DNA of 5,908 nucleotides from a bacterium (GTDB lineage: Bacteria; SM23-31; JAUVVT01): positions 1-5,908 of the forward strand of contig JAUWXV010000226.1 in NCBI GenBank assembly GCA_030616165.1, given 5' to 3'. The position numbers and the translations under genes were made by a program. Positions 52 to 5,508 of the stretch are shown here, in pieces. The notes under the pieces are model-generated. The model searched no databases. It worked only from the letters and a program-made list of their open reading frames with translations, and was not told where the DNA came from. Position 1 is the first letter of the stretch; every line of letters starts with the position of its first letter.

Positions 52-220
52 TATTATAGGGATTCACAAAACTATTTTTTTATAAACAATTAAAAATATC
101 ATTGATAACTGTTGTCATTCCCGTGAAAACGGGAATCCATCTGTTTTATCAATACACATTCATAATGGATTCCCACTTTCGTGTGTGTTGCACAACACCG
201 CCGTGTCATTTCGACCGAAG

Positions 221-240
221 TCCCCCGAGTACTCGGGGGA
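221..240. repeat. Perfect 20-bp palindrome inside the insertion
   Basis: TCCCCCGAGT is followed immediately by its exact reverse complement, giving a 10-bp stem with no loop. Its central 12 bases (226-237, CGAGTACTCGGG) recur at 946-957 in another repeat cluster. Confidence 0.8.
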
Positions 241-265
241 CGTAGTGGAGAAATCTCATAACGCT

Positions 266-291
266 TGCTGTAGAAGGTGTTCTTCACCTTC
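266..291. repeat. Hairpin module, copy 1
   Basis: GAAGGTG (273-279) pairs with CACCTTC (285-291) around the loop TTCTT. The 19 bases at 273-291 are identical to 1008-1026. Counting five more matching bases upstream (TGCTG, then two mismatches), 24 of 26 positions agree. A decayed third version is visible at about 4316-4335. Confidence 0.7.
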
Positions 292-449
292 GACCCTCGG
301 GCTTTGCTCGTAATGACAAAAAAAATAGTTCTGCAACATCCACTTTCGTTGGAATGACATACTGGATTATTGTTTTATCATTTAATTTTTTTGTGTCATA
401 ACTGAACTTTTTCCACATTAAGCTGACTAATAAGAAAAATATTTAAAAA

Positions 450-2973: not shown

Positions 2974-4227
2974 ATGGCACATAATCTAAATAAAATAATA
3001 ACAAAAGGATTGGATTCCTTGAAAGCGACATTCGGGGAGGAATCTATTGAGAAAGCGATTGCTCATACAAAAAGATTTATGGTCGAAATCCCTGGCTGGC
3101 AGGTCTGGGAAGGTTTTGGAGGAGGTGGAAGATTTGAAGGAGAAACAACCGGCGGTGGAGCAAGAAACACTGAAGAAATTGCGCAGGATATTGGTTTCAT
3201 TCATCAGTTAACAAAGTCAACTCCTGATGTTGGCATTCATATACTATGGTTTTTATCAAAGGACGGCATTACCGGTGACTTCGAAATTGCAAGGAAAGTA
3301 AAAGAAGAACTTGAAAATAATGGTATCAGAATGGGCTCAATAAGTCCAACATATTTTTTATCGGGTTCAGAAGATGGAAGTTTTACATCGCAGCAACCTG
3401 CAGCAAGAAAAAGATACATAGAGCAGACCCTACTCGGTGCAAAAATTGCCGCAGAACTTTCAAACGGTCTTTTGACATTATGGTTTCCTGACGGAACAAA
3501 CTATCCCGGACAAAGAGAACTCCAGCAAAAAATTGAATTGATGATGGATTGTATTACGGAATTCTGGGAACGAGTGCCTGAGGATACAAAAAGTAAACTG
3601 AATAAGGTCTTATTTGAGTATAAACTATTTGAGCCGGGAACATACAGCACAACTATCCCCGACTGGGGAACTGCACGAGAGTTATCTCGATTAATTGGGG
3701 AAAAAGGTGGTGTTCTTGTAGATTTAGGTCATCATCATCACGGCACAAATATTGAGCAAATCGTTGCCGCATTGATTTCATTCGGTATCCCTGGCGGTTT
3801 TCATTTTAATACCAGGTATGCAGCGGATGATGACCATTCTGTGCAGGCAGATTATCTACTGGCGAAAATCTTTTATGAACTCATCAAGGGGGATGTTATA
3901 TATAATGAAAATCCATCGAAAAATTGGGCTTATGCACTTGACCAGATGGTAAGAGCAGAACAGCGAATACCATCTATACTGAAATCAATCGATGCATTAA
4001 AAAGGTCAATTGCAAAGGCAGTTCTAATTGATGGCATTTCATTGGGCGGTTATCAAGAGAAAAAAGACATTATCGGTGCCAGTGTTGAATTCGAAAAAGC
4101 ACTGTTACACACTGATACTGGACCAATTGTGATGGAGTCATACAGAAGACAGGGACTCCACCCCGTCCCATTAACCGTCTACCACGAAAGCGGCTATCAG
4201 ACAAAAATCGAGCAAGAAAGACGATAA
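2974..4227 (+). CDS. rhaI: L-rhamnose isomerase, RhaI (Pseudomonas stutzeri) type
   Basis: A cytoplasmic TIM-barrel sugar isomerase (417 aa; relatives about 430) that converts L-rhamnose to L-rhamnulose. Known relatives also accept L-mannose and D-allose. Signature stretches are LWFPDGTNYPGQ (169-180), FEYKLFEP (214-221), VLVDLGHHHHGTN (247-259), GGFHFN (274-279), ADDDH (284-288) and the end YHESGYQTKIEQERR (403-417). Aligned by memory to the P. stutzeri enzyme, all metal ligands are in register: Glu215, Asp250, His277 and Asp323 for one site, and His253, Asp285 and Asp287 for the other. After Asp323-Gln324 the usual His-Asn is replaced by Met-Val, so specificity may differ. The start has only a weak purine-rich region upstream (GGATAAG, 2959-2965). 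It follows the kinase on the same strand after 266 bp; together they give the first two steps of rhamnose breakdown. Confidence 0.88.
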   Translation: MAHNLNKIITKGLDSLKATFGEESIEKAIAHTKRFMVEIPGWQVWEGFGGGGRFEGETTGGGARNTEEIAQDIGFIHQLTKSTPDVGIHILWFLSKDGITGDFEIARKVKEELENNGIRMGSISPTYFLSGSEDGSFTSQQPAARKRYIEQTLLGAKIAAELSNGLLTLWFPDGTNYPGQRELQQKIELMMDCITEFWERVPEDTKSKLNKVLFEYKLFEPGTYSTTIPDWGTARELSRLIGEKGGVLVDLGHHHHGTNIEQIVAALISFGIPGGFHFNTRYAADDDHSVQADYLLAKIFYELIKGDVIYNENPSKNWAYALDQMVRAEQRIPSILKSIDALKRSIAKAVLIDGISLGGYQEKKDIIGASVEFEKALLHTDTGPIVMESYRRQGLHPVPLTVYHESGYQTKIEQERR

Positions 4228-4270: not shown

Positions 4271-4304
4271 TGTAGGGGCACAGCGCCGCTGTGCCCTTTC
4301 TAAC
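4271..4304. repeat. 34-bp palindromic repeat, copy 1
   Basis: The stem GGGCACAGCG (4276-4285) pairs with CGCTGTGCCC (4287-4296) around one base, followed by TTTCTAAC. The whole 34 bases recur at 4537-4570 with a single difference (G at 4278, T at 4544). Confidence 0.8.
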
Positions 4305-4371
4305 CTTCCTGCGGTTGAGGGTATTCTTCACTTCGAATATCTAACGTTGCTCACAATAACATCTCTCATTA

Positions 4372-4536: not shown

Positions 4537-4570
4537 TGTAGGGTCACAGCGCCGCTGTGCCCTTTCTAAC
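4537..4570. repeat. 34-bp palindromic repeat, copy 2
   Basis: It is 33/34 identical to 4271-4304, in the same orientation, 266 bp away. On the minus strand it lies downstream of the nucleotidyltransferase gene. A T-tract (A run at 4521-4527 on the + strand) follows on that strand only after about 13 bases, which is too far for a standard terminator. Confidence 0.8.
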
Positions 4571-4672: not shown

Positions 4673-5263
4673 TCAACATAGGTTTTTAAAAAGAATTTGT
4701 AATTTATTTATAATATTAGTTGTTCCTTTTTCTTTACATAATGGTGACAATTGTTCAATTATAAAGTCAATATTAAGATTTTTACCTTGCCGAACAATAA
4801 TTCCTTCAACATCCATCCAATCTTTTGTTCGATCTGCAAATGCTTTAAGTATAATAAGGTCTTCGGCAGAACAAGTCATTAATCTACAATCAGGATGAAA
4901 AGAAAAAAAAGTTGCTCCTTTAATCATTTGTTCTTCAAATTGTAAACCTGATAGTGATATATCAACTGATACATCATTTGAAGCATATAACAATAATACT
5001 CTGTTAGCAAGTGCAAAATTATAGGCGTCAGATATTCGGGAACGATAACTTCTTAATAAATCTTTGCTATATTTACCTTCGTTACCAAATCCACACAATA
5101 GACAAAGGTCAATATCTTGAGTCATTCTTATTTCACCCCATCGAAGTACTGCCAATCCACCTATAAAACAAAATTGCCATTTGTTTTCTTCCATTGTGTT
5201 TTGTAATTCCAATCCTGCTTTAAATAAAGGATTTATAGTTTCTTGTTTGTTTGACTCTATCAT
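4673..5263 (-). CDS. AbiEii-like nucleotidyltransferase (possible toxin of a two-gene unit)
   Basis: A 196-aa protein of the nucleotidyltransferase fold. The core motif is GG at residues 35-36, followed by the metal-binding pair D50-I-D52 in MTQDIDL and a probable third acidic residue, D101, in VSVDISLSG. The C-terminal block CSAEDLIILKAFADRTKDWMDVEGI (131-155) is characteristic of AbiEii-type and related proteins; AbiE toxins are reported to transfer nucleotides to RNA. It starts two bases after the stop of the small gene upstream on the same strand. There is no Shine-Dalgarno, so translational coupling is likely. Its GC content is low, about 28% in lines counted by eye against about 43% in a sampled stretch of the kinase gene, which suggests transfer. 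The target and whether it is toxic cannot be told from sequence; a housekeeping or orphan transferase remains possible. Confidence 0.75.
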   Translation of the reverse strand: MIESNKQETINPLFKAGLELQNTMEENKWQFCFIGGLAVLRWGEIRMTQDIDLCLLCGFGNEGKYSKDLLRSYRSRISDAYNFALANRVLLLYASNDVSVDISLSGLQFEEQMIKGATFFSFHPDCRLMTCSAEDLIILKAFADRTKDWMDVEGIIVRQGKNLNIDFIIEQLSPLCKEKGTTNIINKLQILFKNLC

Positions 5264-5265
5264 TT

Positions 5266-5508
5266 TTATTTTTTTAATTGCCGTTTTTTCATTTTCATAA
5301 AAATTTTCTGTTGCTCGATTAATCCGCTATCAAAACGTATCTTTCTATGGTTGAATGCATACTCCAACATCTCATTAATTAACATTTGATTCCTTTGATA
5401 ATAATCTTTAGATTGCAGTTCACTACGTTTCACCCTTTCTAAAGAAATACTCGCTTTCTTCCAAATATTTACCCACTTTATTATTTCTTTATTATTACTA
5501 TTTTTCAT
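5266..5508 (-). CDS. Small helical partner protein of the nucleotidyltransferase (80 aa)
   Basis: An 80-residue, lysine-rich, probably alpha-helical protein. From memory it resembles small proteins often encoded just upstream of AbiEii-like nucleotidyltransferases, with a pattern of WxxxWKKAxxxLExxKRxEL near the N-terminus (residues 12-31 here) and SGLIEQQKIFMKM near the end (61-73). The operon is tight: its stop codon lies two bases before the transferase start codon. By analogy with two-gene toxin-antitoxin arrangements it could be the antitoxin or a substrate-presenting partner, but no DNA-binding or known antitoxin domain is evident. The ATG at 5506-5508 has no Shine-Dalgarno. GC is about 30% in counted lines, like the transferase. 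The gene is probably real, because the residue pattern, composition and spacing fit together. Confidence 0.65.
   Translation of the reverse strand: MKNSNNKEIIKWVNIWKKASISLERVKRSELQSKDYYQRNQMLINEMLEYAFNHRKIRFDSGLIEQQKIFMKMKKRQLKK

Follow-up and report, generated by a model that had tools for sequence, protein, structure and literature searches.

IS elements that target REPs or stem-loops are already known, and the MITE reported here is a variant of such a system. IS1272, a member of the IS1182 family, uses stem-loop targets (inverted repeats with loops of 4-6 nt), replacing the stem-loop and leaving no duplication, and recognition was proposed to be by structure, not by sequence (Wan et al. 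2017, PMC5678879). Duplication of just the loop is an outcome drawn in the model for that element, as pathway c in the legend of Fig. 13, but it was not observed (PMC5678879). ISRm22 of Sinorhizobium meliloti has all its copies in REPs, with 6-bp direct repeats and occasional mismatched hybrids (Tobes and Pareja 2006, PMC1525189). REP-specific insertion is likewise described for IS1397 and for ISPsy8 (IS3 family), the latter lying on the axis of symmetry of a predicted hairpin, with 3-bp repeats (PMC1525189). REP dimers within longer palindromes, in regular arrangements, are presented for Anabaena variabilis, Thermomicrobium roseum and Halothiobacillus neapolitanus in the passages of another study that deal with such dimers (PMC3733652).

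The locus described here is a nested palindrome: a MITE, non-autonomous and lacking a transposase, sits within the apex of a REP-type palindrome, at positions 181-343 of the window (by which we mean the whole 5,908-nt stretch that was analysed). Nearest to it in anatomy is ISRm22, with which it shares REP targets, insertion on the axis of palindromy and direct repeats; ISRm22, however, has its own transposase and is listed in the IS4 family, and the likeness rests on anatomy, not on end sequence. The kind of target, a stem-loop, is shared with IS1272, and ISs of the IS1182 family have the ends of the MITE together with a short duplication. Unlike at IS1272 sites, where the stem-loop is deleted without duplication, here both REP arms are kept, the stem is split and the loop is duplicated, which fits pathway c; the window element is moreover a MITE, confined to one REP family in its genome. 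ISPsy8 and IS1397 are alike in REP targeting, but differ in being autonomous and in belonging to another family. The REP dimers also place a palindrome within a palindrome, but in their case it is the REP itself that is inserted, and those same passages describe neither transposon ends nor target duplication (PMC3733652). No publication on MITEs with these ends came up in a limited literature search.

Anatomy of the locus

The window corresponds to C325, a contig of the 3.74-Mb draft genome G000, whose KSB1 affiliation is taken from kinship with its class-mates, candidate division KSB1 bacterium isolate B69T1L10 (G002 = G041) and bacterium isolate CSMAG_1171 (G001 = G042). An initial annotation, made from the letters of the window, had proposed a MITE-like insert within a REP-type inverted pair, and several of its readings are found as described: the 10-bp string CCACTTTCGT occurs at both 173-182 and 340-349; the inverted ends TGTTGCACAAC (186-196) and TGTTGCAGAAC (338-328, minus strand) are identical at 10 of 11 positions (13 of 16 for the full end); and removal of the insert restores a REP, the joined flanks reading TGGATTCCCACTTTCGTTGGAATGACA, a REP-like hairpin of the kind present at 114-139 and 2815-2840. 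The target REP sequence is GTCATTCCTGCGAAAGCAGGAATCCA, and comparison of copies gives an element end consensus of GTG-NN-TGTTGCANAAC, i.e. GTG-NN-TGTTGCA. The interior of the MITE encodes no transposase, and Rfam gave no match within the window. Features are collected in Table 1.

Table 1. Features of the nested palindrome and of the related REPs in the window
Feature	Position	Strand	Basis and remarks
MITE	181..343	+	163 bp; borders set by 12 own-genome copies, 8 KSB1 copies and IS1182-family ISs
Left terminal inverted repeat GTG-TG-TGTTGCACAAC	181..196	+	Copy comparison
Right terminal inverted repeat, outward reading GTG-GA-TGTTGCAGAAC	328..343	-	Copy comparison
Intact REP GTCATTCC-CGTGAAAACG-GGAATCCA, partner of the interrupted REP	114..139	+	Pattern match
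Interrupted REP, left arm TGGATTCCCAC	166..176	-	Sequence; arm class common to essentially all other copies
Duplicated core TTTC, left copy (predicted hairpin loop)	177..180	.	Seen as CTTTCG at 176-181 and, together with element bases, as the 10-bp string
Duplicated loop TTTC, right copy	344..347	.	Copy comparison
Interrupted REP, right arm GTTGGAATGACA	348..359	-	Sequence, pattern match
Inner REP-like unit A GTCATTTCGACCGAAGTC...GACGTAGTGGAGAAATCTC	205..257	+	Partial matches, alignment; also occurs alone elsewhere in the genome
Unit A apex palindrome CCCCCGAGTACTCGGGGG	222..239	.	Alignment; other palindromes at this place in other copies
Inner REP-like unit B GTCATTACGAGCAAAGCCCGAGGGT...	272..317	-	Inverted relative to unit A; approximate borders
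Uninterrupted REP GTCATTCCTG-CGAAAG-CAGGAATCCA, same loop	2815..2840	+	Empty target of the same class; fold places GAAA in the loop

Elsewhere in the window, an FGGY-type carbohydrate kinase (1124-2707) is followed by an L-rhamnose isomerase-like protein (2974-4227), and an AbiEii-like nucleotidyltransferase (PF08843, E 3.6e-6) is encoded on the minus strand at 4673-5263, with a small ORF upstream of it (5266-5508, minus strand). Another repeat family, GTAGGG(G)..CACAGCGCCGCTGTGCCCTTTCTAAC with a palindrome, appears at about 4272-4305 and 4537-4570.

Repetition within the genome

With the insert as a DNA query, 56 matches were found in its own genome, the full-length ones being 73-91% identical. 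The end sequence TGTTGCANAAC has 33 exact sites there, against one for the reversed control pattern; this excess, together with the 12 complete copies, shows that the element ends are not due to chance. About 7 of the 33 sites lie in unrelated sequence and the remainder are element ends, each of which adjoins a REP arm of the GTCATTCC or GGATTCC type (one arm, at L016, is degenerate). Besides the 12 copies with both ends there are about a dozen partial ones; copies occur in both orientations, and essentially all are at REP apices. Complete copies measure 135-189 bp, counted from the TG ends; their interiors partly differ and their ends are constant.

The constant ends, the direct duplications specific to each copy and the two orientations support the nesting of a MITE-like element within a REP-type inverted pair. 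The initial annotation had made its proposal depend on the boundaries and flanking duplications of other copies, and on the flanking repeat not showing the same arrangement everywhere. The boundaries coincide across copies, 11 of 12 have flanking duplications, and insert-free REPs of the same kind exist, for example at 2815-2840. As expected of a MITE, the element is short, non-coding, inverted-ended and repeated in the genome; target-site duplications accompany 11 of 12 copies here (at least 5/6 bases) and 7 of 8 in the KSB1 genome discussed below (at least 4/6), and ends like its own are carried on other replicons by autonomous elements, the IS1182-family ISs (Bacteroidota, L339).

The copies vary in several further ways. 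At L009 (1328-1610) two elements stand in tandem with one middle target core in common, as if the second had inserted beside the first. About a dozen copies have the left end only, several of them breaking off just where GAGAAATCTC, at the 3' edge of inner unit A, ends; partial copies are found at L013, L016, L023, L027, L052, L015 and L022, and those with the right end only are rare. The apex of unit A (222-239 in the window) is wholly different in sequence and length in L002, L006, L008, L011 and L023, and in nearly all copies this apex is palindromic (CCCCCGAGTACTCGGGGG, CACCGCTGAAAGCGGTG; a long C-run/G-run in L011), as if exchanged in blocks. Yet another palindrome, about 30 bp long (TCCTCCGAAGGCGGATCCGCCTTTGGCGGA and variants), lies within the element or replaces part of it, at varying points; in L007 and L008 (also L005, L018 and L061) it forms a third level of nesting. 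Within the ends, the NN dinucleotide (184-185 and 339-340 in the window) is among the most variable positions, at about 1.4-1.6 bits with its neighbours near zero, and this variability between nearly constant neighbours is seen in all copies, those of the KSB1 genome included.

Size of the duplicated core

Duplication was scored on the six bases outside the TG ends, left against right. Eight of the 12 complete copies match at 6/6 and three at 5/6 in direct orientation, with different targets (CTTTCG, CAAAAG, CGCAGG, CGAAAG, CCTGCG), and the summed score exceeds that of shuffled partners (p = 8e-5). Since several different targets are each matched on both sides, these are insertions. The exception, L011 (1/6 direct, 5/6 inverted), looks recombinant, its flanks being as recombination between two copies would leave them.

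About 4 bp are duplicated as the core, namely the hairpin loop (TTTC/GAAA), and the element ends in GTG-NN-TGTTGCA; the call rests on mismatches at the outer positions. At L006 the empty REP would read TG-CGAAAG-CA, and its left copy ends in TG while its right copy begins with CA; the outer TG and CA are supplied by the element. The two sides of the 10-bp repeat disagree at its outer bases in other copies. Among the IS1182-family relatives described below, a G stands next to the left TG in 14/14 and a C next to the right CA in 14/14, and the target bases facing them vary. Identity along the six positions is 9, 12, 13, 11, 11 and 6 of 14 in these relatives, and 5, 8, 7, 7, 7 and 5 of 8 in the KSB1 genome. 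The constant G and C beside the ends and the varying bases that face them place the core at about 4 bp and the window element at 181-343. The apparent 10-bp duplication arises because the outer GTG/CAC of the element resemble the apex bases of the window REP.

The duplication claimed by the initial annotation is therefore present, but its length of 10 bp was too great; as a literal duplication length it was rejected, identity of that extent being found in the window and not generally. Likewise the insertion that it placed at 183-339 is right, with borders off by 2-4 bp.

The hairpin as target

Folded as DNA, the joined flanks leave exactly TTTC unpaired in the predicted loop; in the intact REP at 2815-2840 the unpaired bases of the predicted loop are GAAA. 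CGAAAG or its complement occurs at 346 sites in contigs C1-C80 (848 kb), and seven of these are at a stem apex, defined as a stem with at least 7/8 pairs. With so few apex sites, the confinement of the element to apices goes far beyond what the 6-mer explains. A partner shuffle for palindromy within this genome is uninformative, as all of its targets are one repeat.

Elements in related genomes

The KSB1 MAG B69T1L10, of the same class as the window genome and a different family, has at least eight complete elements of 76-193 bp with ends TGNNTGTTGCACAAC. Most have as their interior two other hairpins, GCGGGGTC...GACCCCGC and TTCGGGTC...GACCCGAA, very different from those of the window element; that the same ends enclose different interiors suggests that a transposase acts in trans. 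The six-base match is 6/6 in three copies, 5/6 in three, 4/6 in one and 2/6 in one; tested against shuffled partners, the duplications have p = 1.2e-4 and the palindromy of the flanks p = 0.035. One clear insertion into a hairpin reads ATTGTCC-[CGCAAG]-GGACAAT; as exceptions, the target at L260 is no clear palindrome and L257 is without duplication.

A GTDB pattern search with an element end plus REP arm found two MAGs, and one with the inner unit gave no match. The full element as a DNA query against 40 relatives recovered inner REP-like pieces only, because the interiors differ. In a genome of the same family as that of the window (L231:3414-3510), an element end lies in a REP arm, and about 87 bp further on AGGAG and ATGGAACAAA stand at the contig end. 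The AGGAG, a possible ribosome-binding site, and the possible start codon may mark the beginning of an autonomous element; its continuation was sought in six genomes and the next contig was not found.

IS1182-family ISs with the same ends

The initial annotation had suggested looking for a transposase whose IS ends start TGTTGCA, and this search turned up members of the IS1182 family on other replicons. When viral contigs were scanned for the end motif by pattern, 120 rows were obtained, mostly chance. In one of the 80 loci checked, L339, another end lies at a distance of 1742 bp, and CCCTTG is duplicated exactly; its ends are TGCTTGTTGCACAAC, and between them lies an IS1182-family transposase in two pieces, disrupted (NF033551; DUF772, DDE_Tnp_1_6). 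Close relatives of this transposase were sought in the viral contigs, and the search recovered nothing but the transposase itself. Relatives on Bacteroidota plasmids (L413-L418, L420-L431; Rufibacter, Arenibacter, Spirosoma, Pedobacter, Myroides and Hymenobacter) have ends TGNNTGTTGCA. Their duplications are 6/6 in Rufibacter (CGATCG) and Arenibacter (CCCTTG), 5/6 in most others and at most 3/6 in three (L414, L427, L430). Several are in visible hairpins, such as TAACGTTCTG...CAGAATGTTA (L424) and GGACATTTT...AAAATGTCC (L431), and the flanks of these ISs are more palindromic than shuffled partners (p = 0.002). They have GTGNNTGTTGCANAA and a core of 4-6 bp in common with the MITE. The same ends thus occur in a second genome of the class, on other interiors, and with duplications on IS1182-family ISs.

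How the element may move

In the window genome the element has inserted repeatedly, with defined boundaries, direct duplications, two orientations and near-exclusive targeting of REP apices. We read 181-343 as an IS1182-type MITE whose ends a trans-acting DDE transposase of the IS1182 family joins at the tip of a REP hairpin with duplication of the loop, and give this reading a probability of roughly 0.85. The transposase would bind the ends GTG-NN-TGTTGCANAAC and join them at the tip of the hairpin-forming REP by two strand transfers, one to either side of the loop; in the repair that follows, the loop (4 bp, GAAA/TTTC) would be copied, and the element would be left between two REP halves. 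That an IS1182 transposase is the agent, and that a cruciform or hairpin shape is recognised and not sequence alone, are what we infer. More tentative, at somewhat short of even odds, is the proposal that transposition is directed by structure throughout: joining at the loop edges of an extruded REP, cut spacing set by the loop, and loop duplication as the product.

It is improbable that the same MITE is moved by some other DDE transposase (e.g. IS1634- or IS4-type, like that of ISRm22) and not by IS1182. ISRm22 is indeed alike in having 10/10 copies in REPs, with 6-bp direct repeats, on the palindromy axis (PMC1525189), and tblastn found no IS1182 transposase in the part of the window genome that was searched (contigs totalling about 1.08 Mb, and other loci, out of 3.74 Mb). 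Yet the end GTGNNTGTTGCACAAC with a C/G-flanked 4-bp core occurs on IS1182-family ISs, and the ends of IS1634 are described as C-----YT (PMC2266710). Across the whole of the window genome the rve and Transposase_mut profiles, both for families other than IS1182, had no matches, and PF01609 (DDE_Tnp_1, not an IS1182 profile) found just one broken transposase relic, nothing usable. An IS4-type assignment from duplication length alone was rejected.

It is very unlikely that a RAYT (Y1_Tnp, HUH) moves the split arms and the inner REPs together as one REPIN-like single-strand element, with no target duplication. The window genome has seven Y1_Tnp matches, the interior of the MITE is an inverted pair of REP-like units, REPIN-like, and partial copies often end at the 3' edge of inner unit A; but a single palindromic element predicts an inverted core (CGAAAG...CTTTCG), whereas the core is direct in 11/12 copies, and copies with other targets retain the match between left and right. 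IS200/IS605-type transposition makes no target duplication. The direct repeats thus defeat this explanation, and none of the seven RAYT loci has a flanking REP pair of the studied kinds (stray matches occur in three). As a model for the outer unit it was rejected: what moves has its borders at GTGNNTGTTGCA, beyond the inner REP pair, and is accompanied by duplications. The suggestion of the initial annotation that the unit is transposon-like rather than a classical REP is supported. The seven RAYT-like loci are L082-L088; beside that of L082 there is a tandem DNA repeat (overlapping frames, repeated peptide).

Least probable of all is that there was no transposition and that REP recombination or template switching built the nested palindromes, the short direct repeats being microhomology: the genome does hold several interleaved palindrome families, the unit A apex is swapped freely among copies and L011 looks recombinant, but the ends GTGNNTGTTGCANAAC stay constant around other interiors in two genomes that belong to different families, and the two orientations, the matched duplications of varying sequence and the presence of the ends on gene-bearing ISs also speak against it.

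Implications

For ISs that land in REPs or stem-loops, the reading of shape versus sequence and the product of joining are poorly documented. In the window genome, about a dozen complete elements have each entered a hairpin of one class, and what is duplicated is the loop. A related genome has the same ends in other hairpins. With the IS1182-family ISs added, insertion directed by shape can be put to the test, the end sequence and the target being defined and the transposase family named. If the MITE is moved at hairpin tips by structure-directed transposition, it would represent the outcome that was drawn but not observed in the IS1272 stem-loop model. The hairpin interior of the element would then supply fresh targets and build nested palindromes, a simple route to such palindromes in intergenic regions.
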